From Bryum argenteum (Eukaryota; Streptophyta; Bryopsida; Bryales; Bryaceae), in contig CM073329.1 in the NCBI GenBank assembly GCA_037043015.1, positions 12,230,648-12,294,647 of the forward strand: a stretch of 64,000 bases of DNA, in the 5' to 3' direction. The position numbers and the translations under genes are program-made. Below, one piece after another: positions 8,400 to 44,152 of the stretch. Below the pieces are notes generated by a model. It ran no database searches. It had not been told where the DNA came from and saw only the letters and a program-made list of their open reading frames with translations. Within the stretch, counting starts at the first letter, position 1; every line of letters starts with the position of its first letter.

Positions 8400-10403
8400 A
8401 TGGTAGAAAATCACCGTGCAAGATTTCATGTTGAAGTAGGACGTTACATTATTTATGACGGATTTCACTTCCCAAGCATGAGCATTAGAGATTTTCTTAT
8501 CACGATACAGGTATTGCTACACTCTCTTGAATGTTGGAGTTGAAAGATCTGAATTGCCTCATTCTTAAATCAAAACTTGCTATTTGCATCGTCTCTCACT
8601 TTACTTTTTGCAAACATCGGTATTGTTCATGTTCGCAATGATAATTCTTTGAGCTTCAAGCACACTGATGTTTATGTTTGATGTTTATGTTGCATGCAGA
8701 CAAATCTTCGCTACAATAACCAGATTCGAGAAGAAGATTACATAACATGCTTAGAGATGAGAAACGATGACAATAGCGAGACGGAGAAGTTCGCTTTAGA
8801 TGCCAGCCTCGAAGATGTGCTTGTGCGAAAAGGGGACAAGAAACTGGTAGCTGTTCTAACATCGATCAACTCATCACCAGCTTCCCTTACCGATCAGCGT
8901 CAAGCTTTGCCAAATGGTACTGGCGATGGTAGGAGAGGGGCTCAACGAGCACGGCCTCCACAAAACGACGTCAGTGCCGGTGCTGCCAACTCTCGCGAAC
9001 CTCCTGTGCTCACATCTAGCGATCTTCTCTATTCGAAACCGAAAAAGCTATTCAGCTACCCTAATGCAAGGTCACCGCTAGTCGCCAAGAAGGACTCTTC
9101 TCTTCCGAACGAGGGCGCCACTGCTATTGCTTTCGCCCAAGCTCTTGATGTGGGCACCAGCCGGCATCCGGTTGTGGCGCAAATCGGCCGCAGAGAAGCT
9201 CAAGCGACAGCACCCCCACGGAGCGATGTCGTCGCAGGTGTTACCAACTTTGCGATATCCAACCCTTCCGAACTCCATGTGGGCAGATTTAGCGAAGTTT
9301 TCCAGTCGAGTTCGAAAAAACAGATCAGTAACCCTCGTTCAAATACACCGACAGTCCCGAGGGTACACACTGCTCCCTCAGAGAAGGGTGCCCCGGATAT
9401 TGCCATCGCCCAAGCTCCCAAAGAAAACACTTATCGGCAGACGGTTGTGACGAATTTCTCATCGGCGTCCGATGACCATATCGACGCCGTGACTCGTGAG
9501 CAGCAACGCACCATCAATGTGAGTGATGGGATTCCGGTGAGCTGCATTTTAGTCATTATAACGGTTTTCAAACGTTCATTGTGTTGATTGTTGATTCTTG
9601 TTATTTGCAGCCCCAGCCAATTGCACGGGTTCTTCGAACTCGTCTGGTGCCACGAGGACACTATAGTGATTCGGATTCTGAGGAGACTATTTCGGATCCT
9701 GAGGAATGCACCAGCACCCAAGCTCCAGACGAGGACAATCATCATCACCCAGTGGCTGCGAATTTTCCACCCGATGCTGTGCCTGTACGAAGCATCCACG
9801 AAACCGGCGATCAGCAGGAGAATGTGACAGTTGCCCAGACTACCGAGCAACGGGGCACCATCAATGTGAGTAAAGAATTGACTTGAGTCGTGATCGTGAA
9901 GTTCATGCTTTTGAATCTTTTGAATCTTTCGTGCTTTCCCTCTACTCTTGATTTCAGATTTGTTTTGTTCACTTTAAAAAAGGTTCGATCGCATGTATCT
10001 CCCCAGCCCGGATCAGAAGACGCTACGAAAACGCCGAGAAGTTCACAATTGCACGGAACTTGTGGACGCAGTCGCAACGTATCCTGGCCATTACATAAGC
10101 CTGTAAAGTTCAGGAACAATAAAATGCTTCGGGAACAATAAATTGCCTCCACTTGAGTTTAGTTTCCCTATTTCGATCAAGTTGTCTTGCCTCGCACTGT
10201 ATGTTGTCCAATTTCATGATCTAGATAAAGGTGATTAACAACATTCTTTACCATGCAACTAGGTACCAAGTTTTGCTGACGTGGCCGATCATATAGAGCG
10301 CGTAACTGCTCAGATTGCTCTTGGGAAGCGCCTCAGAGCGCCCAACCAACAAAAGAACTCTCTGGAGAGAGCGAATGATGAGAATGATGACAACTCACTT
10401 TGA
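8400..10403 (+). CDS. Family A gene, copy 2, five exons, open throughout
   Basis: My exon model is 8400-8510, 8700-9518, 9611-9865, 9983-10102 and 10263-10403. Every intron starts GT, ends AG and lies in phase 0, giving 481 residues. Residues 8 to about 93 (RARFHVEVGRYIIYDGFHF ... LEDVLVRKGDKKLVAVL) alternate in hydrophobic and charged residues in a way that could be a small beta-grasp domain such as PB1 or ubiquitin-like; this is inference. The middle is low-complexity, rich in Ser, Pro, Ala and Arg, with SDSDSEE-type acidic patches. The last exon encodes VPSFADVADHIERVTAQIAL then GKRLRAPNQ, the best-conserved C-terminal motif of the family. The function and family name are unknown to me. 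Four of the five introns begin GTGAGT-like or GTA(T/A). A family B copy follows 0.8 kb downstream on the same strand. RNA evidence would be needed to confirm the exons. Confidence 0.7.
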
Positions 10404-11160
10404 AATGGTCAAAGCGGTGCCCTTAAGCGGTGCCCTTGCTGGGGAGAATGTGACAAAGATAACATGCTAACAATTCGCACAGCTGGAAATTTCATATGTT
10501 ATCAATGCAACATAACAACAATATTGCTTGTTTCATTATCCTGTGAGTATTGGAAAAATACATCCTTGTGTCTTTCTCGAATTTAGGTAGGCTTTGCACT
10601 TATTTTGAGTCCTAATAGTAACTAAATAAAACAAGGTTACAACAATGCAATCAAGAATTGACCTTTGAAAGCTTAGATTATGATTTTTTTGGATTCTCAA
10701 AAAAAAAAAAAAAATTATCAATATGGGAGAGCTTCACTAAGCAATGGGGAACTCATACTAGGTTTTACCTCATTTAGGAAGCCTTGTTTTATAATGTAGT
10801 CAAATTCAAACATAATTCCGTATAACTCTCTTGAAACCATTCAATAAGAGTTTGGTTTTCAAGTTTCCTCTTTCAGAAGGTATTTCTTGATGTGACATGT
10901 TATTATGTTGTCATGGAGCCGATACTATGAGAGGTGATTTTAACGGCAAATGAGAGGTGATTTTAACGGCAATAAGATCATATAAAAACTAACACGTTTC
11001 CAGAGGTAGATTATGAGAGGTTATGAACTTATGATGAGGATGAAACTTATTCTGAACTTGAGGAATTTTGGCTTTGAGGTAACTCACATTTTGTTCCGAA
11101 TATCAACCGCAATCTTCCTTAAAATTACACCGATTAAGATTATCACTTTCTTACTAGCTG
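10404..11160. other. Conserved A-B linker, copy 1
   Basis: This is the spacer between A copy 2 and B copy 1. The block from about 10540 (TTGGAAAAATACATCC...) through 'cttagattatga', the 'atgggagagc' word and 'aagccttgttttat' is repeated between A copy 5 and B copy 2 (19730-20050). In part it is also at 15695-15840 and, inverted, at 41200-41460 between A copy 6 and B copy 3. It contains an A-tract near 10699. The direct repeat 'gagaggtgattttaacggca' occurs twice (around 10930 and 10950). No ORF is supported. Confidence 0.6.
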
Positions 11161-11624
11161 TCCATATTTTGTGAATCCAGACGCGAAGAAGCTCAGGAGC
11201 CACACCTGTTGAAAGGACGACTACTGCTGCGAACCAGCTTGTGGGGGACACTGTTGAGGAGTCAGGCGGCTAGTGGTCGCGCCCGGAGCCCGTAAGGATG
11301 AACCCGCATACTGTTGAAATAAAATCAACTGGCACGGAGGAGACTGCGGGAATTGTGAGAAGGAAGGAAGAGACGAAATTCCTGTGGTGAGACATTCTGC
11401 TGAATCATCTGCCAGGCGTTCCAAGCCGATGATCCAGAATCCTCTCTCTGTGGAGGAGGCTTCGAGGAATACGCCGGTAGGCAATACTGCGAGGGGAGCG
11501 GAGGGAGGAGTCGCGGTGCCGCTGCTGAGAAAATTCTGATCATCGAGGCCCCAATGGCGAGCTCACGAGTGCTAAACCTGCTATTTTGACAGCTTTGGAG
11601 ATCATGTTGATTTTAAAGCCTGCC

Positions 11625-11900
11625 AACCCCAATTCTGTTAAAATGGCACTAGCCATGTGCCATTTTGTCACACTAGATCTTACATTTGTGCTCAAATAAA
11701 ATGATGTATTCCTGTAATATCACAATTTTTTTTGTAATATCACTTCTTTATATACATTGTCACTCATTTTCCCTAATATCACCTTAAAATTCTGTTATAT
11801 CACATGGTTTTTGAACTACAGTTCAGAAAGTTGAGGTGTGCCATTTTACCGGAATAATGCCATTTTACCGGAATAATGCCATTTTAACGGAATTGGGGTT
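11625..11900. mobile_element. MITE, AACCTC-family, short form, inside B copy 1
   Basis: The inverted ends read AACCCCAATTCTGTTAAAAT and the complement of AACCCCAATTCCGTTAAAAT. The interior again has several TAATATCAC words. B copy 3 keeps the uninterrupted site (AAGTCTGCTAGAGCG on its coding strand). In copy 1 it is split as CCTGC-C-element-A-CTGCT, which supports a 4-bp CTGC duplication. It is in the opposite orientation to the short copy at 16916-17172. Confidence 0.85.
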
Positions 11901-11968
11901 ACTGCTAAAGCGACGGAGCGTTCTTCTTAGCTTTCTTAGCTTGAGATGCCTGATTTTGCTGCTACTAA

Positions 11969-12618: not shown

Positions 12619-12680
12619 TAAGACTGCTGGGAGTGAGGCAGTGAGCCGCTTGTAAAATCTACTTTGTAATTCAGTAATTC

Positions 12681-15510: not shown

Positions 15511-15584
15511 TGTGCAGGCTAAGTACATACTTCGAAGGCTATTTCTTATTCATCGGATGCTAGGTCTGTACTCAAACTCCACAA

Positions 15585-15695
15585 AATGCACGACCAGTCG
15601 GCGAAGGCGGCATCGGGGGATGTAACTGTTACTGTAGGCCAGCAACTGGTAATCCTAGCTAGAGCTCAGATGACCAGATCGAAGCCGTGACTCTT
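15585..15695 (+). pseudogene. Family A fragment: part of an internal exon
   Basis: 'aaaatgcacgaccagtcggc' and the following 80 bases match the minus-strand A gene at about 42255-42150, which encodes MHDQSARGPSGDGTATVG ... SSDDQIEAVT. Only this piece of the internal exon is present, and it is interrupted. It passes at once into a copy of the A-B linker. Confidence 0.6.
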
Positions 15696-15840
15696 AGTAT
15701 TGAAAAAATGAATCCTTGTGTCTTTTTTGAATTCAAGTAGACTTTGCACCTATTTTGAGTCCCAATAGTGACTAAATAAAACAAGGTTACACCAACGCAA
15801 TCAAGAATTGACCTTTGGAAGCTTAGATTATGAACTTGGT
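15696..15840 (+). repeat. A-B linker, partial copy
   Basis: The block starting TTGAAAAAATGAATCCTTG and ending 'cttagattatgaacttg' matches 10545-10690 and 19735-19880, with few differences over about 140 bases. It lies between an A fragment on the plus strand and one on the minus strand, so two rearranged pieces meet here. Confidence 0.7.
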
Positions 15841-16620
15841 GCGGTTACGTAAGCGAAGCTTGTAAGCAAAGCTTGGCACCTACCACCTGGTTGCATGACA
15901 AAACATGCTGTGAATCTAGATTATTAAATTCAACAACTAGAGTGCGAGGCAAGACAGTCAACTTGATCGACTAGAAAGACAAGTAAAAGAAATTTATTGT
16001 TCTTGAACTTTATAGTCAACTTGATCAACTAGAAAGACAAGTAAAAGGAATTTATTGTTCTTGAACTTTACAGGTTTACGTAATGGCCCAGGAGGCTGGG
16101 TTGCGGCTGCGTCCACAAGTTCCCTGCAATTGTGAACTAGAGGCTCTCGGCGTTTTCGGGCTCGGGAGATACATGCGATCAAACATTTTTTAAATTGAAC
16201 AAAACCAATCTGAAAACAAGAGTAGAGGAAAAGCACTGTGATTCAAAAGCATGAACTTCACGATCACGACGATCGCTAGTCACGGCTTTGATATGGTGAT
16301 CTGAAAGCTTGCTATCATGTCTATCTGGAAGAGCAACAGCACCAGTCACATTCTCCTTCTGATCGCGGGTTTCGCGGATGTTTCGTACAGGCACAGCATC
16401 GAGTGGAAAATTAGCAGCTACTGGGTGCTGATGATTGTCCTCATCGGGAGCTTGGGTGCTGGCGCTGGCGCTCTCCTCAGAATCCGAATCACTCTCCTTA
16501 GAATCCGTCCACTGTCCTCGTGGCACCAGACGTGTTCGAAGAACCCGTGCAATTGGCTAGGGCTGCAAACAATCAACACAATGAAAGTTTGAAATTCATA
16601 AGAAGATGAAAGTTTGAAAT
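15841..16620 (-). pseudogene. Family A copy 4, 3' half, inverted fragment
   Basis: Read on the minus strand it shows PRGQWTDSKESDSDSEESAS (about 16526 on), then APDEDNHQHPVAANFPLDAV and PVRNIRETRDQKENVT, which equals exon 3 of A copy 2. The 'cgatcgcatgtatctcccgagcc' exon and the intron before the final exon follow (down to about 15860), with 'ggtgccaagctttgc' at the far end. Exons 1 and 2 are absent. A 58-base tandem duplication (15956-16013 and 16014-16071) lies in its last intron. Confidence 0.65.
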
Positions 16621-16915
16621 TCATAAGAAGGTATGCGATGCTTTACCTTACCTCCCATGTAAGATGTGATTCATCTATGTATAGACCCAAAATGAAATCC
16701 TAAGCATCAAGGCACTTACTAAAGTTAAATCTGTCTCAAGATTACAATTTTCATTCTATTTAGTGTGGTACATCGGCAATAGATGCAGCTAATGTGATCC
16801 TTGATTGCATTTCATTCTACAAACAAGAGACACGATATGTGGTTGTAACACACATTCTAGAGTAGTTGTACTTTTTACACCTGTCCTCTTCCATGAGCGT
16901 CAAGCATTTACCTCG
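16621..16915. other. Intergenic, nothing recognised
   Basis: There is no gene or repeat that I can name in this short stretch between A copy 4 and the MITE at 16916. Confidence 0.3.
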
Positions 16916-17172
16916 ATCCCCAATTCCATTAAAATGGCATTATGTTGTTAAAATGGCACACCTCAACTTTCTGAACTGCAGTTCAAAAACCATGTGATAT
17001 AACAGAATCTGAAGGTAATATTATGGAAAATGAGTGACAATTTATATGAAGGAGTGATATTATTTAAAAATTTGTGATATTATAGAATACACCCTTCCAT
17101 GTGAGCACATATGTAAGATTTGGTGTGACAAAATGGCACATGGCATAGTGCCATTTTAACGGAATTGAGGTT
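16916..17172. mobile_element. MITE, AACCTC-family, short form
   Basis: The ends are inverted (ATCCCCAATTCCATTAAAAT and the complement of AACCTCAATTCCGTTAAAAT). CTCG flanks both sides (16912-16915 and 17173-17176), an exact 4-bp duplication. It is the reverse-oriented relative of 11625-11900, sharing the 'tttctgaactgcagttcaaa' palindrome and the 'atggcacatgg' block. Confidence 0.9.
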
Positions 17173-17670: not shown

Positions 17671-17679
17671 TTCATTATT

Positions 17680-18770
17680 AATTACGATACAAGTATCATT
17701 GCTACACCCTTTCAGTTTTGAAGTTGAAAGATTTTGAGTACATGAATCTTTCAATTAGAGAACAGAGAAGTTCATGTCCACAATGATATTTAAAAGTTCA
17801 AGCATGTTGCAAGAATTCTAATGTTTATGTTGCATGAAGAAAACTGTTCGCTACAACAACCAGATCGCAGAAGATTACATAACCTTCTTAGAGACGAGAA
17901 ACAAATGAATGATGATAGCAAGCCGGAGCAGCTCCTCTTCGAAGGATGTGCTTGTAAGCAAAGGGGACAAGAAAATGGTGGCTGTCGTAGCATCATCAGT
18001 ACATCACGAGCTGCCCTTAACGATCAGGGTCAAGCTTCTCAAGCTTCCCCGATGGGAAATGGTACTGGCGAATTTGATGCACCAGTTGACAAGGTGGCGG
18101 ACAGCATGCTCAATGAACTCCTCCACGAGTATGTTGAAAAGGTGGCAGAGAATGAGATTGCCTCCGAGTGGCCTTCGAATGACGGCGGTGTTGAAACCAA
18201 CAATGCGAATGACCGGAGAGCATCTCAAGAGCAGCAGGGCACCAACACGGTGAGTGATGCATCGACTTAAGTCGTGATGGAGAGGTTCATGCATTTGAGA
18301 TCTCAGTGCTTTCCTCTACTCTTGTTCTCAGATTTTTTGTGTTCAATTTAAACCAGGTTCGATCGCATGTATCTCCCCAGCCCGGATCAACTCCGAGAGC
18401 CTCTATCACACAGATGGGGATACTTCTGGACGCAGCCGCAACCCAGCGTGGCCAATCTGTAAAGCTCAAGAACAATAAAATTCTTCGAAGTTTAGTTTTG
18501 CTTGTTCGATCAATTTGTCTTGCTTCGCACTCTATTTTGTCAAATTTCATGATCAAAATGGGTAATTCACAACATGTTTTGTCGTGCATCTAGGTGCTAA
18601 GCTTTGCTGACGTAACCGATCATATAGAGGAGTGCTCAGGTTCCCCTTGAGAAGCGCCCGAGAGCGCCCAACCAACAAGAGAACTCCATGGAGCAGGCGA
18701 ATGATGACAACACGCTTGAGGGTGGTGGTGCCCCGACAACACGCTTGAGGGTGGTGCCCTTGGTCAAGAG
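17680..18770 (+). pseudogene. Family A copy 5, no exon 1, broken
   Basis: It begins in what is intron 1 of the family ('cgatacaagtatcattgcta'). Exon 2 text follows at about 17830 (VRYNNQIAEDYITFLETRNK) and is closed by a stop. The (L)VSKGDKKMVAVVAS segment is in another frame. From about 18075 to 18200 there is a segment not seen in other copies (VDKVADSMLNELLHEYVEKV, AENEIASEW). The EQQGTN-GTGAGTGATG exon end, the 'cgatcgcatgtatctcc' exon and the last exon (18597 on, LSFADVTDHIEE) are recognisable; the last has a small deletion that shifts the frame. Together with B copy 2, which starts 1.6 kb downstream, it is a second A-B module with a dead A and an open B. Confidence 0.65.
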
Positions 18771-18960
18771 AAGCAAACGAAGGTACAAAGAAGCAAATAA
18801 AGATAACATGCTAACAATTTGCACAACTGGAAATATTATAAGTTACTAGTATACACTCGTGTTCTCACAATGCTCAAAAAAGAATATATATATATTTAAT
18901 TAATTTGTGAGTAAGGTCCTCCTCGTCCCGATGGGTGTGCTCTCTATAAGTCTATATTAT
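18771..18960. other. Start of A-B linker, copy 2
   Basis: 'gataacatgctaacaattt' matches the sequence just after A copy 2 (10456 on). The linker is then interrupted by the pyrimidine-rich repeat at 18961-19460 and resumes at about 19690. Confidence 0.5.
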
Positions 18961-19460
18961 GTGTTCTTCAAAATCTACCCCCTATCCCGGTTTCCTTGTT
19001 GACGTCCCCTTGCTTTTTAAGATTCGTAGCATGTATTCCGTTCCCTCGTTCCTAGATTCTAGTCTTCTATTCTGATTCCCCATCCTCCAATTTTTTGTTA
19101 TTAGTTCCCTATCTCCAAACTCCTCTTTTCTGTTCCCAACCTTTGTTCCTCGTTCCCCATTACACAACTGACAACTCCCCTTCTTGGTGGCCATCATTCA
19201 TTCCCAACTCCCCATCCCAAACTCCCTTACTTAGTTCCCATCATTTGTTCCCAATTCCCCATCCGCCAACTCCCCCTTTTAGTTTCCAGCATTCATTCCT
19301 AGTTCCCATTATTCGTTCCTAGTTTTCATCATTTGTTCATCATTCCCCTCCTTCGTTCCCAATTCCCATCTTTTGTTTCTCGTTCCTAGTTTCCGCCTCA
19401 TGTAATCCCTTAATCACCCGTTCACTCCTTCTTTGCTCCCATTTTTATTTCCCACGTTCC
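18961..19460 (+). repeat. Degenerate TTCCC/CGTTCC low-complexity tract
   Basis: About 500 bases are built of TTCCC, GTTCC, ATTCC and CATTCGTTCCTAG-type words at irregular spacing, almost lacking A/G runs. The pattern is that of a worn short-period repeat. It separates two parts of the conserved A-B linker, so it was probably inserted or expanded there after the duplication. Confidence 0.6.
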
Positions 19461-20423
19461 TTGTCCCTTCGACTCCTTGTTATATTAGGATCTAATAAAC
19501 TCTTAAAAACAATAAAATATCACTTACCAAAACCCTTCAAAATCTTCAAAACTCTTCATGCGGTGTATATAGCATGGGCTTGTTACCTTTTCGTTGTCTT
19601 TTTTCAAAACTTTTTGGTAAATTCAGCTTTAAAAGGAGCTCATAGAAAATAGTAAGTCACAAAAACTTATTCTATTATAGTGTTGAGAGATTAATGTCAC
19701 ATATGTTACCGCGATATTGTTTGTTTCATTACTCCATCAATATAGAAAAAATGAATCTTTATTTCTTTTATGAAGTCAAGTAGACTTTGCACCTATTTTG
19801 AGTCCCGATAGTAACAAAATGAAACAAGATTATAACAATGAAATCAAGTATCAACCTTTGGAAGCTTAGATTATAAACTTGTTGGATTAAAACTCTTCAG
19901 TATGGGAGAGCCTTACTTAGCTATGGAGAACTTATGCTAGATTTGAACTCATTTAAGAAGCCTTGTTTTATGTAGTCAATTTCAAACAAAATTCCTTATA
20001 AATCTCTTGAAACCTTTCAACATGAGTCTGATTTTAAGTTTCCTCTTTTAAAAGGTATTCCTGACTTTACATATTACTCTTTTGTATTTATGAAAGTGAA
20101 CCATTTTAGTGTAGCCGTGTATTTATGGCACTCTTGTGGACTTGACATGTTACTATGTTGTACTAGAGCCGCCGATATTAATATTAATATATGCTCAGAG
20201 GTGATTATAAGGGCAGAAAGATTATGTAGAAACTAACAGGTTTTCAAAGTGTCTGTAGGTTACGAGAGGTTCCGAAGAGGATGAAACTTATTCTTAACTT
20301 AGGGAGGAATTTCGGCTCTGAGATTACTCACATTTTGTTCCAAATTTTAACCGTTGTTTCCCTTAAAAGTACACCGACTGAGATTATCACTTCTTACTAG
20401 CTTTTCATATTTTGTGAATCCAG
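19461..20423. other. A-B linker, copy 2, and upstream region of B copy 2
   Basis: From about 19690 on it matches 10490-11180 (the ATATTG...TTTCATTA word, 'actttgcacctattttgagt', 'atgggagagc', 'aagccttgttttatgtag', 'gaggtgatt'). Just before B, 'aggatgaaacttattctt' (about 20278) matches the same phrase at 11038 and, inverted, at about 41100. This may be a short upstream exon of B (reading RMKLILN). Its splice donor is GT only in copy 1, so I leave it open. Confidence 0.5.
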
Positions 20424-21767
20424 ACGCGAAGAACCTCAGGAGCCACACCTGCGGAGAGGACTGCTGCTGCGAACAAGCTTGTGCGGGACACTGTTGTGGA
20501 GAAGTCAGGCGGCGAGAGGTCGCGCCCGGAGCCCCGAAGGATGAACCCGCATGCTGCTGAAATCGAATCAACTGGCACAGAGGAGACTGGGGGAATTGAG
20601 AGGTCTTCCAGAGGTGAGAAGGAAGGAAGAGTCGCGGTACCTGTGGCGAAGCATATTGATAAGCGTTCCATGCCGATGATCACGGATCCTCTTCATGCGG
20701 AAGAGCCTACGAGGAATAAGCCGCTTAACGAGTCGGCTGGTGGAGAGGAGGAAGGAGTCGCGGTGCCGGTGGTGGCAAAATCTGATGAAGGAAAGGCCGA
20801 GCCCTTCAAGGGCGAGCTCACTAGTGCTCAACCTGATGCTGCAAAGACTGCGGGAATTAAGCCGCGTGACAAGTCTGGTAGAGGTGAGAAGGAAGAAATC
20901 AGCACGGAGCCGTTGGTGGAACATTCTGGTGATCGTGGCGCCAAGCTTTTCAAGGGCGACCTCACGAGTGATCAACCTGCTGCTGTGAGGACTGCAGAAA
21001 TTGAGCCGCCTGCCGAGTCTGCTAAGGAAGGACTCACCACGGTGCCGGCGGTGAAACATTCTGGTGATGGAGGCGCCAAGCGCTGCAGGGGCAAGCTTGC
21101 GAGTGCTCAACCTGCTGCTGTGAAGACTGCTGGTATTGAGCTGCTTGATAAGTCTGTTAGAGGCGAGAATGAAGGACTCACCACGGTGCCGGAGGTTGAA
21201 CATTCTGGTGATCGAGGCGCCAAGCGCTCCAAAGGCGAGCTCACGAGTGCTCAACCTGCTGCTTTGACGGGTTCGGAGATCATGGAGGATGCTAAAGTGA
21301 GGGAGCGTTCAGCCGAGCTTTCCAAGGGCGAGCTTACGATGCTTACGATGGCTCATTCTGCAGCTGTTATTAGCGCCTGGAGTGAGCCGCTTGTGAAAAT
21401 TGCTAAGGCGGGACTCGTCCAGGCACCTGCGGTGGAGCGTTCTGCTGATCGACGCGCGGAGATTTCAAAAGGGAAGCTCAAGATTGATCCTCCTATGACA
21501 GAAGAAGCGGGAATCAAGCCACTTGAGAAGACTGATGACGGGAAGATGGAAGAAAACGAAGGCGTGAATCTGGTGCACCGTAGTGCTGGTCGCTATCAAT
21601 CCAAGCGCGGGCTTAAGAAAGGTAAGCGCGGGCTTAAGAAATCCAAGCGCGGGCTTAAGAAATCCAAGCGCGGGCTTAAGAAATCCAAGCGCGGGCTCAA
21701 GGAAGCTTTTCCTACTGCTGTGAAGACAAATGACTCCTCCGGTTCGGAAGAGGGCGAGATCCGGTGA
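20424..21767 (+). CDS. Family B gene, copy 2: lysine-rich internal-repeat protein
   Basis: A single open exon of 447 codons plus stop follows an acceptor-like 'gtgaatccag' at 20423. The first in-frame ATG is at 20541 (MNPHAAEIESTGTEE); an upstream exon may supply an earlier start. After an N-terminal part shared with B copy 3, the protein has about four imperfect repeats of roughly 45 residues, each of the form (A)K-fKG-LTSAQPAA-kTAgIE--dks--ge-eglttvP-veHSGDrG (about 20805-21265). A lysine/arginine C-terminus is built of the seven-residue unit KSKRGLK, encoded by exact 21-base repeats (21600-21705), and is followed by GEEGEIR-like acidic residues. It is highly charged and probably disordered; the KRGLKKSKR tail would suit nuclear targeting or nucleic-acid binding (inference). 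No known family was recognised. Confidence 0.6.
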   Translation, partial: TRRTSGATPAERTAAANKLVRDTVVEKSGGERSRPEPRRMNPHAAEIESTGTEETGGIERSSRGEKEGRVAVPVAKHIDKRSMPMITDPLHAEEPTRNKPLNESAGGEEEGVAVPVVAKSDEGKAEPFKGELTSAQPDAAKTAGIKPRDKSGRGEKEEISTEPLVEHSGDRGAKLFKGDLTSDQPAAVRTAEIEPPAESAKEGLTTVPAVKHSGDGGAKRCRGKLASAQPAAVKTAGIELLDKSVRGENEGLTTVPEVEHSGDRGAKRSKGELTSAQPAALTGSEIMEDAKVRERSAELSKGELTMLTMAHSAAVISAWSEPLVKIAKAGLVQAPAVERSADRRAEISKGKLKIDPPMTEEAGIKPLEKTDDGKMEENEGVNLVHRSAGRYQSKRGLKKGKRGLKKSKRGLKKSKRGLKKSKRGLKEAFPTAVKTNDSSGSEEGEIR

Positions 21768-26800: not shown

Positions 26801-27223
26801 GGATATTATGACCCTTAGTAGCCTAGATTGTTAATTATTTAGATATTATGACTCTTAGTAACCAGTTCCCTTCTAGGTAGTGCTCTCATGTAATTCCTCC
26901 TAGTTGTTAGTTGACCCAACTTGAAAGTTGACTTGACCTAGCAATCGGCCCAACTCTGTAGCCAGATCCTGATTCAAATCCAGATCTGTTTCAAATCTAG
27001 ATTTAGATTGAGATGTAGATTCAAATCTACATATAGATTATGGATCTTTTCATTGTATCTTCTTCTTATAAGTGAAGGTCATTGTATCTTCTTCATGTGT
27101 GGTTACACACATTGAGCTTAGGCATGTTTAGCAATGTGATGGCTCTTGTGTCAAGTTTGCCCTACTAGTAGGTAGAACACTTTCCCTCTTTACCATAAAT
27201 GAAGGGGTCAAAAGTGATTGTTT

Positions 27224-29063
27224 TCCTAAGATTTTTACATGGAGATTCTAATACTGCAAAGTGTATGTGGTACATTCTCCAAAGCCAAATTCCAATTTTA
27301 GAACCTTCATTTATAAATTGTAGGTTTCAAGTACAAGACTCGGACTTGAAACCTAGAATTTTTGAGTTTGAAATTTTTTATTTTATTTTTAAGTATGATC
27401 ATTACCGAATCACTATTTAACCCCTAAACGTCCCAGCCTTTTTTTAGCAGAAAAGCACATTTCCATAAAAATTGTCATAGATGAAAATCAAGAGAAGCTA
27501 ATAACATCTCAACCGTACAAACTTGTAATAGACTTATCGAAGATCATGTGGACCAAAACCAAAATTTGAGTCATGAGGCCTTATAGATCGGGAGATCGTA
27601 ACATATCAATACTAAAAACAAACTGCAAAATTTCATCATTTTCACTTTGAGGTGGAAATGCTACCAATATACCTATTGCAATGAAAAAGTCACCAACTAG
27701 AAAGATGTTCACCTTCATCTTAATAATTCCTTTACCCAACAAAAATTCATCAAATAAATTTCTTGGCTCAAATAAAAGCCATGCAATGGTAAAAACTACC
27801 GAAAATTTTACAAAGGAAAAATAGTCCAAAACTAGACCCTTTGCATTCAATTTCATGCCTTATCTTCAAAACATCTTTGATCTTGTTAAGGTTTCTACCA
27901 CTTAGACTAGACTCTAATTGGAGGCCATTCCAAAAAATTAAGTTGAAATCCAACGGTGGATGAAGGAGATATAGCTCCTCAAATATCATCCATTTTCTCA
28001 CTTTTTTCTGTTGACAAAACATCATTGCCAATCCAGTAGCAAAATCATTTGGATCAAAAAACTTCTCACTACAAAGTTGTTAAGAATCACCTTAAAATCA
28101 TGACCATGAAAAAAAAATCATGAAAAACTATTTTTAATTTCACATAATTGGCTTGCAATGGTAATACATGCCCCATGCTTGGAAACCCAAAAACAAGAGT
28201 TGTCTTCACTAAAGTGCATTCCATTAATTCATACTTTATTGTATGGGCTTGCAAATTTTACGACACAAACTAGACTTGATTTGGAACCCAACACAAGTGA
28301 TTTCATCCAGAACGGAGTTTGGATGAAGGCGTTATGGCTCTTCAAAGTTTCTGCCCTCCATCCAAAATGTAGAAAAACGACATTGGGGACGTTTAGGGGT
28401 TAAGCTCCAAAGTAACACAAGTCAAAAAGTTTACCAATTTTACAAGGACACCTTTAAAAAAGTACAACAATCTTCATGATATTTGGTAATTTTCCAATTA
28501 TTTTTTTCAAATTTTGTGAAAATTCAAGATCTTGAAATTTTCTAGAAAAACTTTTGCTAAAAAATCATAAACCCATAAAGGAACCTACTCACTGTCTCTT
28601 TTTCCGTAAATAAAATACAATAGACGTGATGCTTGTTTTCTTGAATGTTTGTTTTTATACCTTCTTCTTGAAAAAATAATTATATGAAGGTTCAAAAAGC
28701 AAAATGAGTCTCTAAAATTTTGCATGGTTCATTCTCAACTTAATTGTCTACATGGAAGAAAATATGTGCAAAATGTTTGGGGCTATAATCATCAAGTCTC
28801 TCTTTGCTCAAACAAGACTTTGTCTCCCGGACAATACTAAAAAAAGTTTTGCATCAACTTTGTATATTACAATCTCACTATTGGTGCAGATCAATGGTTA
28901 GAATTTGAGAAGGTATTTCTAGTAACAGTTTCCTTTGAGATCTTACGGTTGAATAACCTTCAATATGGTAAACATTTCAGCCTTATCTCAATCTCTTCAA
29001 GGTGGTTAAATCATAGTTTTTGAGTTTGCAGATCCAAAGAACCCTTGGACCTTTAGAGGTTAA
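27224..29063. mobile_element. Old TTAA element, type 2, split by a nested type 1 element
   Basis: The parts 27224-27416 and 28404-29063 together follow the interior of the type 2 elements at 60013-60952 and 54273-55199: 'cctaagatttttac', 'gtttcaagtacaagactcgg', then 'aagtcaaaaagtttaccaat', 'ggcaaaactc'-type words and 'gatcttacggtt'. The right end is 'acctttagaggttaa' (TTAA 29060-29063), a worn version of GGATTTTTAGGGGTTAA. The left end is not recognisable. The break falls exactly at a TTAA, with the type 1 element 27421-28399 between. Non-coding. Confidence 0.75.
27421..28399. mobile_element. TTAA-flanked element, type 1, complete (979 bp)
   Basis: The inverted ends CCCCTAAACGTCCC (14 of 14) are flanked by TTAA at 27417-27420 and 28400-28403. 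It lies inside an older type 2 element. The corresponding uninterrupted sequence of type 2 at about 60287-60312 lacks the insert, which shows target-site duplication at TTAA. No ORF resembles a transposase, so it is non-autonomous. Relatives without ends are at 22690-23400 and 39760-40290. Confidence 0.9.
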
Positions 29064-33480: not shown

Positions 33481-33494
33481 TTTATATTTTGGAG

Positions 33495-33553: not shown

Positions 33554-33571
33554 AACCAATCATTGCATTAA

Positions 33572-34384: not shown

Positions 34385-36412
34385 GATGAAGATTCGTTTC
34401 GTCTGCTTTAATGCGCGATTGTTCAACCGTGCCGTTCACTGCGTGGTTTCCTGGTTACATTCGTCGTTCCATCGTCGCGCAGTTGAGTTCACCCAGCGGT
34501 TGTCCGCGGGCGAGTAGGGCAGTCACGTTGAGTTAGAGCGCCGCGACTGAGGCGCCGTCTGACAATAGCGCTACCACGACGGCGCGCAGCCCCGAATTCG
34601 GGATCGTCGTCGCGCTTGCCCCCGCTCTAGCGCTGGACGGGATACAGCTTTGGTTTGGAGTGGCCAATCCGTCACACTCCAAGAATGCCTCCCGCTTTTC
34701 CATGGCCCGATTTAGTAACTGCAAGCACTGGATTTCAAAGCCCATCCCTTCTCGCACCCCACTGTTCCTCGGAGGTCGGACTATTTTCCAGCCCCCAGTG
34801 GCACTCCCCCTGGCCCTGGCCCCCCTCCATCGGCAGTCAGTACTCTCCTGGTCGCGCGTTGCATGGAATAGAGCGTCGTCGTGGTGTTTCGTGGCGAGGG
34901 AAATGGAGCCTCACTGGCTTTTCGGGGACATACCTTGTTGTTGCCTCCACTTTCGACGACTGGAGGTAGCGGATCAATCGATCACGTCCCGCGCAGCTCC
35001 AGGTTCGGGATTTCTTGCATTTTTCAACTTGCCTAGCTTGAATGTAGGCCATAGTGTTGAGTTTAGGCCTTCGCTTAGAAGGCTGAAGTGTATCTTCGAT
35101 CTTCCCTATCATTCGTTTCTTTCAATACGGACGTTCTTGGATTGCATACACGACGGAAATTTGAAGTTAGGATGGTATTGGTGTGTATCTTGATTCTGAG
35201 ATTTATTGATCGAAGCGGAGGGCGTGAATTGTAGTGATTGTGTCGGTATCGCTCTCCGGTACTGGTTGTTGAGTGAGGGTAAGGTCTCTTTTGATTACGT
35301 TGATTGAAGTGGGTTTATTTCTTGCGGGAGTTCTTGCACTTTTTAAAGCACCTATCTTGAATGTAGGCCCCTTTTGTAGAATGGAAATCTGCGGTTTAGT
35401 TTCGATCTTGCCCGCGATTCGTTTCTTTGAACTAAATCCCGTTCTTGCACTGCATACATTTTGGAAATTTGAAATTAGAATGGTATTTGTGTGTATTTTG
35501 ATTCTGAGGTCTATCGATCGAAGTCGAGAGCGCGAATTGTAGTGACAGTATAGGTATCGTTCTCCGGTACTGGAGTTGGGAGTGAGGTGCGGTATCGTGT
35601 ACGATATTTTCTTGAATTTGCCAGTTGAATAGAGTGTTCGCTAGCACGAGGTGCTCTTATAGAGCTCGCATTTAAATGTGGAGGCTCCTGCACGTTCTGC
35701 GTGACCGCAGCGCGAGTAGCTCGTTAAGGGGTATTAGACCATCAAGTATTGCGTGAAACGAGTTTCGAACCATTCTTGCACTGTGAGGACTTAAGGTTAG
35801 CAATTTATTTGTTCCGAACTGGAGGTTTTGCGGTTACTCCAGTTGTTAGTTCAAGCGATTTATCAGGAGGCGAATTTCGATGAATATGAATGTGGAAGTG
35901 TCCCCGTGACTCTTAACATAAGCTTTTAAATTGCTGCATGTACATTCTGATTTGACGTGCCGTATTAGCTCTCTGTTTTTTTTCGATGGGAAAAGTGTAC
36001 TTCAGTTTGTTATGAATGATTCCGTGGATTTGGTGCGTGGAGTTCGCAGCCGTTCACGGTCGGATACCTTGCAAGTGATCACGAAACTAACATGGTACGT
36101 GTTCTTGCATTGCAGGTTCAAAAGCGCAGACTCGCGATTTCTGAGTGATCCCCGAGCTCTGTTGGTGAACGGTGAGTATATACGGAATTTGTTAATTCTC
36201 CACTTTAAGTGGTCATGGTTTTTGTCTTAAGCTTTTGATTCGCTTCGGATTTGACTCTTTTGATGGTGTGATGTTCGTGCAGATGTCATGCATGTCTTGC
36301 ATCTTTACAGCAAATGTATCGTTTGCCCATGAGGAACCCTGGAAACAGAATTCAAATCTAGCGCACAACATTCGTGTACAGTAGGAATGCCAGAGGACAC
36401 GACCACCGCCAG
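34385..36412 (+). promoter_or_regulatory. GC-rich upstream region and probable leader of the OVATE gene
   Basis: Composition changes sharply to GC-rich at about 34390 and stays so through the OVATE gene, marking a host-gene island. Between 34.4 and 36.4 kb there are several good splice-like signals (for example TTGCATTGCAG at 36115 followed by exon-like text and GGTGAGTATA at 36170, then TTCGTGCAG at 36281), so the transcript probably has a spliced non-coding leader. An in-frame TAG at 36359-36361 blocks any N-terminal extension directly upstream of the ORF. The region contains the tandem duplication 35007-35587. The open frames at 34655-35193 show no family likeness and are not called. Confidence 0.5.
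35007..35587 (+). repeat. Diverged tandem duplication of about 270 bases in the leader
   Basis: 35007-35278 and 35326-35587 share order and text: 'cttgaatgtaggcc', 'gatcttccctatcattcgtttcttt' against 'gatcttgcccgcgattcgtttcttt', 'ttgatcgaagcg' against 'tcgatcgaagtcg', and 'ctccggtactgg' with 'gagtgagg' at the end. Identity is roughly three quarters by eye, so the duplication is old and has been kept. Confidence 0.8.
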
Positions 36413-38518
36413 ATGCTGATAGAGAGTACTTCTAGCATGGACAGCGCTGAAAAGCCGAAGGGGAGACTCTTCGCTGCAGTCTTACCAAGTGTGTGGTTTA
36501 TCAAGCTGAGGGCGATGCGTCGAAAGTCTCGGAGCTCGAGAGCATCTGGCCATGAAACTGTAACACCCGATTCTGCGCCCTTCCTTCCCAAGTCCGTAGA
36601 AAATTGTTATAAACACGCACCGGGGTCTGAGGTTCGTGCGTTCTCTCCTCTTCAAGGTCCCGAGGCACCAAGCAGCCCGAGTCGTGAGAATGCTCCGGCT
36701 CCATCAACCATGACTTCAAGCAGGAAGAGTGTCGTCCGCTCTGAAGTGACCTCGAGGACCACTCCCGTGACCTCTATTGCGGCCACGACTACCTCTACGT
36801 CCTCCGTGTTCTCGAGGTGTATGTACAGATCCACATTCTTCTCTGGTGTAAGGAGTTTGTGCAAGCTCGTGGGAGACGAGGCGTTATCGACGAAGGGTGG
36901 CTCAAGCCCCTCGATGCAGTTCCGAAAGACTTCGATGCCGACAATGAGGCAATGGTTCTTGGTTGGCTGTGGAGGCGCTCCTCGACCACGTACCCGCCAT
37001 AGCAGTTTGGATCTTGAGAAAGAGTCGGGATTGATGGAGATGGATGGGGACTCGGCCCTTGATTGCATAGAGGAAGGATCGGGACTAGAATCCTCCTGGC
37101 CTACCAAATCCGCGTCGTGGTCTGGAGCCAATCCAACGCCATGGAATGTCGACACAAATGAAGAAGTGGTCAAAAATCAAGTGATTGTGAAGAAAAAGAT
37201 CTTTCCGAAGAGCAGGGAAATGAAGGGACTGAAAGATAAGTCCCCGGTTAAGCTGAAACCTGGATCTAAACCTACTCTTGGCCACCTGTTTTCGACTCGG
37301 TCTGATACGGATTCTCCAAGAAGGATTTTCCCAGACACCGAAGAGGAGTCGGAGGTTCATATTGAGGATCCCAAACTGGTTACGCTTCCGTGGAAATCAA
37401 CATCTTTCGGTAGTGACAGCACTTTTAGGGTTCCGTCGTTAGGTTCAGAGTACGGACTTGCGCTCTCAGGAAGAAAGCCGTATTTCTCGTTTTCAGAGTC
37501 CGATCCCCCGGGGGCGTTCAATGAAGAATTCGATAATGGTAATATTTCTGACAGTCAGAGCTTGCTGAGAGAGAAGGTGCTGGCAGCTGAGCGGCTGCGT
37601 GAAGGCTCGAAGTCTTGGAGAGATCATCGAAAGCTTTTAGACGCAAAGCAGAAGGATGAAGAAGCAATGATGCTTCTCGCATCGCTCGATCAAGCTTTGG
37701 ATCAACGCAACTTAAAGAAGCTGATAGAAGACGAAGAGGACAGCGGCTCAATGTTTGGTAGCACCAGATTTGAGCTTCACAACTCTCCTGTGTTCGAGAG
37801 TTTCCTTGAGTCCTCCGCGAAGGCATGGGGCATCGACTTCCCCACCTTGAAGGCCGAAGACTTAAAGCTCTCAGGGTCCCTTAGCGATAGAAGTAGGGAG
37901 CTGCACTGTGTCACAGTGCAAACTGCATCGCATGTGGAGAAAGCCAGAGAGCAGGCGCTGGAGAGGGAGAATCGAGGAAGAGAGGTTGTCCGTGCCACTC
38001 GATTGAATAATGCCTCGCCGGCGAAGGCACGCAAAGTGAAGCGTCCCGTGGAGAAGGAAGTAACGAAGAAGCCATCTCCATCACGAAAACCTCTCTCGAA
38101 GAACATCCGGGAGGAGCGGACCATCCATCCGCAACGGGAGGAGAGCATGGTGGATCCCGAGCTCCACGACGAGTTTAACCATGCCAGACGGAAATTCAGT
38201 GAGGCAAGGAAGCGGGCAAAGCAAAGGCGGTCTAAGCACGTTGCACCCGCCCCGTCTCCTCCTCTTGCTGCTGCTCCCAAGCAACAGCAAAGCGTCGTGA
38301 AAGAGCGAGTGGCTGTCGTAGTTGAGAGCTCTTACGACCCCTACAACGATTTCCGTGAGTCCATGATCGAGATGATCGTAGATCAGGATATTCAGGAAAC
38401 TGGGGATTTGGAGGAGCTTTTGCAGTGCTATCTGTCGCTCAATGAGGCGGAGTACCATAACGTCATCGTGGATGTCTTCACTGATGTTTGGCACGAGCTT
38501 TTCGAAAACAGGAATTAG
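36413..38518 (+). CDS. OVATE family protein, unusually long (701 residues)
   Basis: OVATE family proteins are plant transcriptional regulators that also bind homeodomain and TRM/cytoskeletal partners and shape organ growth. The C-terminal 63 residues are a textbook OVATE domain: SSYDPYNDFRESMIEMIVDQ, then DLEELLQCYLSLN, then YHNVIVDVFTDVWHELF. Near the N-terminus, AAVLPSVWFIKLRAM (residues about 21-35 from ATG 36413) matches the OFP N-terminal motif (IPNAWFYKLKDM). FLVGCGGAPRPR (about 182-193) resembles the GCGCR(K/R)P block. Between them lie long Ser/Pro/Thr-rich and charged stretches (a basic part at about 530-610), making it far longer than the usual 150-450 residues. It is one uninterrupted exon. 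The start is ATG 36413 or ATG 36437; both are downstream of an in-frame stop. I see no damage. Confidence 0.92.
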   Translation: MLIESTSSMDSAEKPKGRLFAAVLPSVWFIKLRAMRRKSRSSRASGHETVTPDSAPFLPKSVENCYKHAPGSEVRAFSPLQGPEAPSSPSRENAPAPSTMTSSRKSVVRSEVTSRTTPVTSIAATTTSTSSVFSRCMYRSTFFSGVRSLCKLVGDEALSTKGGSSPSMQFRKTSMPTMRQWFLVGCGGAPRPRTRHSSLDLEKESGLMEMDGDSALDCIEEGSGLESSWPTKSASWSGANPTPWNVDTNEEVVKNQVIVKKKIFPKSREMKGLKDKSPVKLKPGSKPTLGHLFSTRSDTDSPRRIFPDTEEESEVHIEDPKLVTLPWKSTSFGSDSTFRVPSLGSEYGLALSGRKPYFSFSESDPPGAFNEEFDNGNISDSQSLLREKVLAAERLREGSKSWRDHRKLLDAKQKDEEAMMLLASLDQALDQRNLKKLIEDEEDSGSMFGSTRFELHNSPVFESFLESSAKAWGIDFPTLKAEDLKLSGSLSDRSRELHCVTVQTASHVEKAREQALERENRGREVVRATRLNNASPAKARKVKRPVEKEVTKKPSPSRKPLSKNIREERTIHPQREESMVDPELHDEFNHARRKFSEARKRAKQRRSKHVAPAPSPPLAAAPKQQQSVVKERVAVVVESSYDPYNDFRESMIEMIVDQDIQETGDLEELLQCYLSLNEAEYHNVIVDVFTDVWHELFENRN

Positions 38519-39640: not shown

Positions 39641-39759
39641 GCACTCTAGTCACATCAACTAAACATGAACAACCATATCTCCATTTTCATCTGTGGAGTG
39701 AAAGCACACCACAGTGGATCAAAATGCACCATATGCCCTCTAATTTCTATAATTACGTT

Positions 39760-40290: not shown

Positions 40291-40465
40291 AGTTTGGTTC
40301 CCATAAATAATGTTCCAATCGTCTTCTCCTTACTTAGGGAACATATGTGACATACGTAATTCACAGTATGGAATTCGAATGGTCAAAAAACCAACATTAC
40401 AGAGCAGATTTCCCAAGCGGCTCACTCCCAGCAGTCTTAGTAGCAGCGGAATGAGGCATCTCGAG

Positions 40466-40951
40466 CTAGGCAGAACGCCTCGTCGCTCTAGCAGACTTCA
40501 AAATCGACATGATCTCCGAACCTGTCAAAGCAGCAGGTTGAGCACTCGTGGGCTCGCCATTGGGGCCTCGATGATCAGAATTTTCCACCACCGGCACTGC
40601 GACTCCTTCCTCCGCTCCCCTTGCAGAACTGCCTACCGGCGTAATCCTCGAAGCCTCCTCCACAGAAAGAGGATTCTGGATTATCGGCATGGAACGCCTG
40701 GCAGATGATTCAGCAAAATGCCTCACCACGGGAATTTCGACTCTTTCTCTATTCTCCCCTCTAAAAGACCTCTCAATTCCCGCGGTCTCCTCAATGCGAG
40801 TTGATTGCACTTCGGCAGCATGCGGGTTCATCCTTACGGGCTCCAGGCGCGACCTCTCGCCGCCTGACTCCACCACAACAGTTTGCCGCCCAAGCTGGTT
40901 CGCAGCAGTAGTAGTCCTCTCCGCTGATGTGGCTCCTGAGCTTCTTCTCGT
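40466..40951 (-). CDS. Family B gene, copy 3: short form without the tandem repeats
   Basis: It reads from the acceptor-like 'ttgtgaatccag' (just above 40951) as TRRSSGATSAERTTTAAN, then MNPHAAEVQSTRIEETAG (first ATG 40816) through to a stop at 40466, 161 codons. It aligns with B copy 2 at both ends, but where copy 2 has about four 45-residue repeats copy 3 has only one (NGEPTSAQPAALTGSEIM). It stops where copy 2 continues into the KSKRGLK tail. Homology to copy 1 continues for about 75 bases past the stop. A copy 6 lies 0.6 kb upstream on the same strand. Either this is a short functional isoform or the early stop is a loss; the sequence alone cannot say. Confidence 0.5.
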   Translation of the reverse strand, partial: TRRSSGATSAERTTTAANQLGRQTVVVESGGERSRLEPVRMNPHAAEVQSTRIEETAGIERSFRGENRERVEIPVVRHFAESSARRSMPIIQNPLSVEEASRITPVGSSARGAEEGVAVPVVENSDHRGPNGEPTSAQPAALTGSEIMSILKSARATRRSA

Positions 40952-40991
40952 CTGGATTCACAAAATATGGTCCACAGCTAGTAAGAAGTGA

Positions 40992-41553
40992 TAATCTCAG
41001 TCGGTGTAATTTTGAGGAAACAACCGTTGAAATTTGTAACAAAATGTAAATAAACTCAAAGTCAAAATTCCTCCGGAAGTTCAGAATAAGCTTCATCCTC
41101 ATCAGAATCTCTCATAACCTACGTTTGAAAACGCCTTAGTTTCTAGATCATCTAAGTTCGCCCTTAAAATCACCTCTCATATTAATATTGGTTCCATCAT
41201 AACATACTAACATGTGAACTTGTGAAGAGTGTCATAAATACACGGCGACACTAAAACGGTTCACTTTCATAAATACAAGAGAGTAATATGTAATGTCGAA
41301 AAATATCTTTCAAAAAAGGAAAGTGAAAACCAAACTCATGTTGAAAGGTTTCAGGAGAGTTATAAGGAATTTTGTTTGAATTTGACAACATCATAAAACA
41401 AGGCTCCTTAAATGAGGTCAACCTAGCATAAGTTCTCCATAGCTTACTAAACAAGAATTCATTCCTTCAATACTCACAAAGTAATTAAACAGGCAATAAT
41501 GAGGTAACATGTAAGGCATTTATAACATATGAGATTTCCAACTGTGCAAATCG
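40992..41553. other. A-B linker, copy 3 (inverted)
   Basis: On the minus strand it repeats 'aagccttgttttat', 'ggaatttt...caaattcaaac' and 'tttcctttttt' type phrases in the same order as 10780-11160 and 19960-20400. It lacks the 'cttagattatga' block, so the linker is shortened here. Confidence 0.6.
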
Positions 41554-44152
41554 TTAGCATGTTACCTGTGTCAAGTTCTCCCCAGCAAGAGCACCACTTT
41601 CACCACTAAGCGTGTCGTCATTCTCTTCCTCTACGGAGTTCTCTCGTTGGTTGGGCCCTCTGAGGTGCTTCCCAAGAGCAATCTGAGCAGTTACCAGCTC
41701 TATATGATCGATTACGTCGGCGAAGCTTGGCACCTGGTTGCATGGCAAAACATGCTGTGAATCTAAATTATTAAATTTGCCAACTACAGTACGAGACAAG
41801 ATAGTCAACTTGATCGACTAGAAAGACAAGTAATAGGAGTTAGTGTTCTTGAACTTTACAGGTCTACGAAATGGCACAGCGTCGGGTGGAAAATTCGCAG
41901 CGACTGGGTGCTGGTGATTGTCTTCATCAGGAGCTTCGGTGCTGGCGCTCTCCTCAGAATCCGAATCACTGTAGTGTCCTTGTGGAACAACAAGACGAGT
42001 TCGGAGAACCCGTGCAATTGGCTGGGGTTGCACATAAAATGAAAGCGACAGTCAACACAATGAACGTTTGAAAACCGTTAAGATGACTAAAATGCAGCTC
42101 ACCTGAATCCCATTACTCACATTGATGGTGCCTTGCTGCTCACGAGTCACGGCTTCGATCTGGTCATCTGAGCTCTGGCTAGGAACACGAGTTGCTGGCC
42201 CTACAGTAGCAGTACCATCCCCCGACGGCCCCCTAGCCGACTGGTCGTGCATTTCGTGGGGTTGAAGTACAGTCCCAGCTTCAGGTGAGGCATTTGCCCC
42301 AACAGTGTGCCAAGAAATGGCCTCATGAAGAGCTTGGGTGTTGGCAGCAGGAATGGCTCCCTTGTCGGAACCCGGATCCCTGGAGCCTCTTCTAGAAACT
42401 ATGCCCCAGGGGTCTCCTCTCGTCACCAGATGAGTTGGAAGAACCGGTACATTTGGCTGGGGCTGCATCAAAACATAAAATGACAATAAATTCACTGAAC
42501 GTTGAAACCTTATGATGACTAGAATGCAGCTCACCGGAATGGCGGAATCCCATCACTCACTTTGGCTGCGCCTTGTTGCTCGCTTGTCACGGCTTCGATC
42601 TGCTCATGTGGACGGTGGATATTGACTGGACGATGACCAGTTGTTGGCGTCACAGTCCAAGACGGCTCCGTAGTCGGCGCCCTAGTCGACTGGTCCCGCA
42701 TTTCTTGGGGTCGAAGTACAGTCTCACTCTCCGGTGTGGACTTCATCTCAACATGGGGCCATGGAATGGCGAGATTAAGAGCTTGGGTATTGGCAATAGG
42801 TACGTAGCCCTTGTCGGATCCCGGATCCCTGGAGCCCCGTCTCGAATCTTTACGAATCGAACTAGACTGCGGCCGCATGAAAATAAACAACAATCATCAC
42901 ATAAAACATTTAAAAAGCGAAAGAATTTAACTAAAATACAGATTATTTAGAAGAATCCATCACTCACTTTTCTGGTGCTTAGCAGCTCACGAACGTTTTG
43001 GACACCAATTGATGGCGCCACAGCTGCAGTCGCATTCTCTGCATGCCCCACCGCCGACTGATAGCCAGTTTCGTGAACGGTAGGTACACTCCCGGATGCA
43101 GGTGGGAAATTCATTACAACTGTGTGCCGATAAGCTTGGGCGATGGGAATATCCTTGATGCCCTCGTGTGTAGGAGAAGTGTGTTCCCTCTGGACTGGCG
43201 GTGTATTTGCCCGAGGGTTACTTACCTGCTTTTTTGCCCTCGACTGGAGAACTTCGCTGGACCTGCCCACATGGAGTTCGGAAGGGTTGGATATCGCAAT
43301 GTTGGTAACACGTGCGAAGTCGTCGCTCCGTGGGGGCGCTGTTGCTTGAGCTCCTCCGCTGCCGATTGGCGCCACAACTGAGTGCCGGCTAGTGCCCACA
43401 TCAGGAATAGCAGAGGCTGCCACGTTCGGATGAGAAGATTCGTTCTCCGCAGCGACTTGCGATGAACTTGCACTAGGGTTGATGAATAGCTTTTTCCCTT
43501 TCGGATAGAGAAAATTGCTGGATCTGCGGATTCTGCGAAAATTGCTGGATCTGCGGATTCTGCGCACAGGAGGTTCGCGAGAGATGGCAGCACCTGCAGT
43601 GACATCGTTTCGTGGAGGCCGTGCTCGTTGAGCCCCTCCGCTACCATCGCCAGTACCATGTGGCGAAGATTGACGCTGATCGGTAAGGGTAGTTGGTGAA
43701 TGTATCGATGTTACAACAGCTACCAGTTTCTTGTCCCCTTTGCGCACAAGCACATTTTCGAGACTGCCATACAAAACGAGCTGCTCCGCCTCGCTATCGT
43801 CATCGTTTCTCATCTTTAAGGCTGTTATGTAATCTTCTTCTCCAAGCTGGTTATGGTAGCGAAGAATTGTCTGCGCATGCAGCATAAACATCAGTGCGCT
43901 TGAACCTCAAAGTATCATTGCTGATATGAACTGTTCAGGTTTTGTTGCTGAAACAATACCGATATTTGCAAAAAGTAAAGAGACAATGCAAAAAGCAGGT
44001 TTAGATCTTTAACAATTGAGAGAGTGTAGCAATACCTGTATCGTGATGATAAAATCTGTGATGCTCATGCTTGGGAAGTGAAATCCGTCATAAATACTGT
44101 CACGTCCTACTTCAACACGGAACCTTACTCTTGCACGCTCATCGTCTACCAT
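41554..44152 (-). CDS. Family A gene, copy 6, six exons, open throughout
   Basis: My exon model is 44152-44036, 43870-42968, 42866-42561, 42462-42121, 42021-41860 and 41733-41554. All introns are GT-AG in phase 0, giving 669 residues. The N-terminal domain (RVRFRVEVGRDSIYDGFHF ... LVLYGSLENVLVRKGDKKLV) and the C-terminal VPSFADVIDHIELVTAQIAL motif match copy 2. Exons 3 and 4 both begin with (R)PQ and contain SRRGSRDPGSDKG, ANTQAL and EAVT-EQQG, so they are duplicates of one another; copy 2 lacks them as separate exons. At exon 5 the expected acceptor reads CAA instead of CAG, but an AG six bases inside (42023-42022) keeps the frame. Another in-frame ATG (MET, 44161) lies just upstream of the chosen start. 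Function unknown. B copy 3 follows on the same strand. Confidence 0.7.

Follow-up and report, generated by a model that had tools for sequence, protein, structure and literature searches.

The analyzed stretch of DNA, hereafter the window, covers 64,000 nucleotides of the moss Bryum argenteum (contig CM073329.1, C9:12230648-12294647) and contains several copies of a unit in which an open frame, A, is followed on the same strand by a second one, B. These copies were named W1 (first, +), W2 (second, +) and W3 (third, -), and genome searches covered the 258.8-Mb assembly of this species (25 contigs). Comparison of the window with itself, a dot-plot-type check, revealed a collinear A-to-B duplication between 8361-11623 (+) and 44191-40491 (-), with blocks of 76-90% identity, and a partial third collinear unit at 17821-20840 (+), amounting to two full units and a partial one. 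A first-pass annotation of the window had claimed a co-duplication of A and B with a conserved spacer between them, and both claims were borne out: the intervening stretch was also kept between duplicates, as a DNA similarity that fits introns of one gene. The three fates that it had assigned to the modules were recovered as well, exon 2 (corresponding to A, see below) being open and B broken in W1, A damaged and B open in W2, and both open in W3.

In W3, seven predicted exons were delineated between 44152 and 40469 (-) (Table 1). They were bounded by GT-AG, every length was divisible by three, all introns were in phase 0 and the whole formed one open frame. The A frame started inside an intron, the B frame opened right after an AG acceptor and in phase with the preceding donor, further in-phase exons sat between them, and no conserved start codon stood at the beginning of either exon 2 or B. 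The best interpretation of A and B is that they are exon 2 and the terminal exon of one multi-exon gene, and the two separate genes of the first-pass annotation gave way to this single frame. The "C-terminal motif" ascribed to A is a predicted GTGAGT 5' splice donor read through into the intron, and it recurs because the units of exons 3 and 4 are a duplication (74% identical). This may serve as a warning for annotation, as conserved splice donors, once read through, can mimic protein motifs. Among the seven aligned copies, GTAT or GTAC followed exon 1 in six, i.e. in all those possessing this exon; the GT present at this position in eight copies is not independent evidence, for the search pattern required a GTN codon there. 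An AG directly preceded exon 2 in all seven copies read. Gap lengths of up to 60 bases between pairs of five copies were divisible by three 100 times out of 156 in exons 1-6 and 39 times out of 225 in introns, with the reservation that pairs of copies are non-independent and that the exon-5 columns also hold extra exon or intron material from other copies. The seven-exon gene is predicted to be spliced and expressed.

Table 1. Predicted exons of the W3 gene and related copies or fragments (positions within the window)
Feature	Position	Strand	Remarks
W3 exon 1	44036..44152	-	start codon and first half of N-terminal domain
W3 exon 2 (= A)	42968..43870	-	second domain half and long tail; then GTGAGT donor
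W3 exon 3	42561..42866	-	tail unit
W3 exon 4	42121..42462	-	tail unit; about 74% DNA identity to exon 3 unit
W3 exon 5	41860..42021	-	last base placed by eye
W3 exon 6	41566..41733	-	begins VPSFADVIDHIE
W3 exon 7 (= B)	40466..40951	-	coding 40951-40469, then stop codon
W1 exon 1	8400..8510	+	open
W1 exon 2 (= A)	8700..9518	+	open to GTGAGT donor
W1 B exon	11181..11273	+	early stop after 30 codons; damaged B sequence beyond
W2 exon 2 piece	17821..18037	+	damaged
W2 B exon	20424..21767	+	open for 447 codons; 144-bp and 21-bp tandem repeats
Diverged copy, exon 1 piece	917..1003	+	
Diverged copy, exon 2 piece	1637..1813	+	
Exon 1 remnant	6300..6419	+	one stop
Scrambled middle and downstream pieces	15559..17172		partly inverted; from self-comparison

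Exons 1 and 2 encode a domain of about 92 residues that Pfam did not recognize, and no Pfam match was obtained for the A or B frames. Among about 5.8 billion proteins, nothing was retrieved at an expectation value (E) of 10 or less with the W3 exon-2 frame or the spliced N-terminal part of W3 (residues 1-100), in searches whose reach is limited by 5-residue word matching. Rfam and transfer RNA scans were empty. Within the genome, the window domain detected paralogues elsewhere at weak E, including one at C9:8.344M (hereafter L050; E 0.0017), which displayed the same split domain, a phase 0 intron at the same position and an RWP-RK domain encoded by exon 3 (E 4.9e-22). A paralogue at C7:3.57M had the same layout (split domain, RWP-RK). 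A row at C7:14.24M (E 3.6) was discarded as chance, its long frame reading like a multi-pass membrane protein. In the reverse direction, the L050 domain recovered W1 at E 3.5e-7 and a copy at C9:12.180M at 4.7e-7. As read within this genome, the phase 0 intron lies at the same place inside the domain in the window copies and in L050, L051, L059, L060 and L061. Homologous domain and shared intron position together placed the window genes in the family defined by this N-terminal domain (N-domain).

L050, a slower-evolving paralogue, finds relatives where the window sequences fail. Its domain matched 11 rows among public proteins, seven of which carry PF02042 (RWP-RK); the nine named matches came from Physcomitrium patens (the best of them, with 78% identity in the domain), Marchantia paleacea, Riccia sorocarpa, Riccia fluitans, Calypogeia fissa and two Adiantum species. 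The first-pass annotation had recognized neither family; this still stands for B, which has no known relatives outside its own loci in this genome as judged from a search with the B protein, and no longer for A, whose exons belong with the N-terminal domain found in a conserved RWP-RK protein of plants. In a tree of 18 domains, six members of the window branch formed one group (100/100), the stem of which measured 1.14 changes per column, and deeper forks were weak. In two of the public proteins, P0002 (Riccia sorocarpa) and P0007 (Adiantum nelumboides), the part preceding the RWP-RK domain runs straight into VRSLESTIHGLEHTIAVGQ with no RWP-RK exon, which represents either an annotation slip or a real splice form devoid of RWP-RK.

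A genome scan with PF02042, in which 150 of 182 candidates were scored and broken copies were counted in, returned 150 rows, 130 of them over the Pfam cut-off (four only with neighbours in frame) and 20 below. Merging 129 tabulated rows at 1.5 kb on one strand gave at least 120 RWP-RK loci, many of which were in arrays. Dense arrays were located at C9:8.25-8.36M, C7:8.72-8.77M, C8:12.57-12.97M and C10:10.52-10.77M, and suggest local amplification. For other bryophytes, the table of a review (PMC11291829) gives 4 RWP-RK genes in Marchantia polymorpha, 13 in Physcomitrella patens, 9 in Sphagnum fallax and 10 in Anthoceros angustus, these counts of 4-13 and the about 120 loci reported here having been obtained by different methods. 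Large sets are not unique, as 101 members are given for Chrysanthemum lavandulifolium (available text of PMC10105424). Within the accessible text of the open-licence literature, no report of such an RWP-RK expansion in a moss was found.

The window branch stood apart with regard to the RWP-RK exon. The neighbourhood of N-domains was evaluated on 44 of the 72 rows of the L050 search (exon-2 rows with E of at most 0.011, exon-1 and weaker rows being omitted). Outside the window branch, an RWP-RK row on the same strand followed at a distance of no more than 1.2 kb in 25 of 36 cases (23 over the cut-off), and 11 had none within 4 kb downstream, whereas none of the eight rows of the window branch was followed by a PF02042 row within 4 kb. 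Our own RWP-RK profile, run on the frames of fetched loci, reached at best E 3.3 in the window and 0.022 at a locus of the branch, about 5.7 kb downstream of the fragment at C7:15.247M. From this distribution, the RWP-RK exon was apparently lost in the window branch rather than never there. The window genes carry no detectable domain that would make them RWP-RK transcription factors; they are therefore regarded here as derived from that lineage, without being classed among the RWP-RK proteins themselves. Another group, at C7:4.97-6.68M (L060, L061, L062 and L064), combines the N-domain with very long repeat-rich tails (frame of up to 991 residues) and has no RWP-RK row within 4 kb.

Exon 6 was compared with both parts of the relatives, using six copies (the second copy was left out) and, as one of the relative rows, the fern sequence of P0007-P0009. 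As a degenerate RWP-RK domain it was rejected: hhalign gave no signal, and the best of 20 offsets was at 37/2000 permutations, uncorrected for the 20 tries. Against the relatives' exon downstream of RWP-RK, it showed the same phase at its start and a faint likeness (48/2000 permutations at one anchored offset); as hhalign gave no signal and no profile matched, its origin as a relic of that exon is a lead only.

The fold of the N-terminal domain was approached through homologues, for which the AlphaFold model of the domain was a ubiquitin-like beta-grasp. As modelled in these homologues, the domain would adopt a beta-grasp of the ubiquitin-like or PB1-like type, a kind of fold that frequently serves to bind partners. 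No Pfam PB1 or ubiquitin row was obtained for the W3, L050, L051, L058-type and L060 domains, with filters that drop most weak matches, and a search of the PDB with the W3 sequence gave no row below E 0.5. A 13-row profile of the domain matched part of the viral protein STIV B116 in the PDB at E 0.0083, all others being above 0.3, and this was taken as chance. The AlphaFold prediction of the whole Physcomitrium protein gave no usable information on the domain (mean predicted local distance difference test score, pLDDT, of 38).

Taken together, these data make it likely that the window harbors copies of a single gene which is a fast-evolving branch of the RWP-RK transcription-factor lineage without a detectable DNA-binding exon. 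Three points are new in this respect: the origin from RWP-RK proteins, the DNA-binding exon missing from this branch, and how large the RWP-RK set of Bryum argenteum is. Several results weigh against this interpretation. The multiple-of-three rule for gaps failed for exon 4 alone (6/16) and for exon 7 alone (26/68), exon 6 showed no RWP-RK remnant, and confidence was sufficient in only one of five AlphaFold models, all of them depicting homologues and not the window domain itself. Constraint on the coding sequence also appeared weak, since exons were no more alike between copies than introns and the excess of third-position changes was slight. Pooled ratios of nonsynonymous to synonymous differences (pN/pS), from seven copies for the domain and seven for B including the 30-codon W1 stub, were 0.58 for the domain, 0.85 for the exon-2 tail and 1.07 for B.

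These observations raise the question of whether most or all copies are decaying RWP-RK-derived duplicates without protein function, the open frames of W3 being a young relic. W1 and W2 are both disrupted, a frame break affects the domain of the C9:13.18M copy, and exon 2 of the C8:3.11M copy stops early; the lack of exon conservation above introns, the near neutrality of B and the wide variation of tails between copies point in the same direction. On the other hand, all seven exons of W3 are open, in-frame indels are seen in exons 1-3, 5 and 6, and the dN/dS ratio of the domain was 0.36-0.71 for the 17 pairs whose dS exceeded 0.2 (0.63-1.22 in four younger pairs). Such decay is the main alternative and by no means far-fetched, though less likely than not; the two explanations may also be true together, one or two functional copies persisting among relics. 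The fast turnover and lineage specificity put forward by the first-pass annotation are both reflected in these data, the latter as far as the protein database extends.

The original division into two separate genes, co-duplicated as a pair, is very improbable. Long open frames for both on one strand in W3 would agree with it, but the intronic start of A, its "motif" being a donor, the in-phase acceptor in front of B, the in-phase exons in between and the lack of conserved start codons all speak for exons of one gene.

Genome-wide, A-B units were found at C9:12.239M, 12.248M and 12.274M (the window copies), C9:13.183M, C7:5.650M, and C8:1.615M and 1.624M. Searches with B-side DNA, A-side DNA, the middle part and the B protein all described a low-copy family. 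The B protein retrieved 11 rows, consisting of seven loci (three with a second piece) and one chance-level row (E 0.78). All seven B loci lay downstream of A on the same strand, so that their linkage is not a matter of chance. Additionally, an A at C10:12.316M was accompanied by a B-like DNA piece 11.7 kb further on, and family fragments include C8:3.110M, C9:12.180M and C7:15.247M. The extent of the shared 5' flank was specific to each pair, with 1.3 kb in one block for W1 and C8:3.11M, more than 3 kb for the two C8:1.6M copies, and about 40 bp beside the start for W1 and W3. No transposon domain was found in the 15 distinct window frames given to Pfam, which represent part of the window. Because of the pair-specific flanks and low copy number, tandem and dispersed segmental duplication fits these copies better than a transposon. 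A gene-bearing mobile unit, with the A-B module being a transposable element or the cargo of one, can hardly be credited: copies are dispersed on chromosomes C7-C10 and part of the 5' flank matches sites with no reported A piece (e.g. C7:5.76M and C7:5.79M), but the unit shows neither the high copy number (about seven), nor the fixed ends, nor, in the 15 frames given to Pfam, the transposon protein of such elements, terminal motifs and target-site duplications of A-B not having been systematically searched. It contrasts with a high-copy repeat of the window, for which 4269 candidates and fixed ends were recorded.

This 936-bp repeat was present at 54268-55203 and, inverted, at 60009-60957 (92% identity), with related pieces at 27211-28797. 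It has fixed ends and 4269 candidates in the genome (40 scored), and is probably, as a guess, part of a transposon such as a long terminal repeat; its two copies flank an AP2-domain gene at 56821-57867. Among other neighbouring genes, an open frame at 36362-38518 (+) ends in an Ovate domain (E 9e-26), typical of a plant transcriptional repressor family, and a 423-amino-acid frame at 48162-49433 (+) is F-box-like by eye and had no Pfam match. As for the remaining pieces of the family in the window, W2 had no recognizable exon 1. Extra A pieces had been signalled at four places, and those at 0.9 kb (exons 1 and 2 of a diverged copy) and 6.2 kb (an exon-1 remnant) held good; those at 15.6 and 15.8 kb did not, because the pieces at 15.6-17.2 kb match middle and downstream parts, partly inverted, and not the A domain.

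If the window gene is indeed such a derived branch, its N-terminal domain, which is the part conserved in other plants and the most visibly constrained here, would have been kept without DNA binding. The long, repeat-bearing tail would grow by exon duplication and by duplication of tandem repeats. Through the N-terminal domain, the proteins might bind partners of the RWP-RK paralogues, or these paralogues themselves, thereby titrating or dampening the paralogues; competition for partners, or inactive complexes formed with the paralogues, would be the simplest form of this. The proposal is tentative and rather unlikely as it stands. RWP-RK factors are linked to nitrogen responses. They have also been connected with egg-cell formation and algal mating type (available text of PMC8000587). 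A broader and more speculative scenario, which we consider unlikely, is that an ancestral N-domain RWP-RK regulator of mosses, liverworts and ferns expanded here to dozens or more of the about 120 loci, and that at least two groups without RWP-RK (the window branch and that at C7:4.97-6.68M), with hypervariable tails, act as rapidly evolving antagonists or decoys, for instance in gamete or reproductive conflict; the latter is suggested because RWP-RK genes are egg-cell and mating-type regulators. Were this true, a moss with about 120 RWP-RK loci and an N-domain-only branch would offer a natural experiment in a regulator escaping constraint, and the role of the N-terminal domain would become testable.

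Several known systems can be compared with this gene. The N-domain RWP-RK proteins of Physcomitrium patens (P0001), Marchantia paleacea (P0004), Riccia, Calypogeia and Adiantum possess the homologous N-terminal domain, as established via L050, and the split-domain layout of the window copies is shared by paralogues in this genome. The former mostly keep RWP-RK, whereas in the window branch no such domain is detectable and the fast-changing tail is a different one. NIN-like proteins (NLPs), the RWP-RK subfamily equipped with a PB1 domain, have a common RWP-RK ancestry with the window branch, and PB1 is a beta-grasp-type domain, the fold proposed here from the homologue model. Their PB1 domain is C-terminal to RWP-RK, whereas the domain described here is N-terminal, with no Pfam PB1 match listed. 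An unnamed conserved region upstream of RWP-RK is mentioned for the RKD subfamily (PMC11291829). RKD members have RWP-RK without PB1, while the window branch is without RWP-RK. Microproteins are DNA-binding-less members of plant transcription-factor families. Clade-D ARFs are likewise without a DNA-binding domain (available text of PMC10299833). The tails of the window branch differ from both in being long and variable. Its proteins would work like these DNA-binding-less paralogues of transcription factors, with the interaction domain kept and DNA binding absent.

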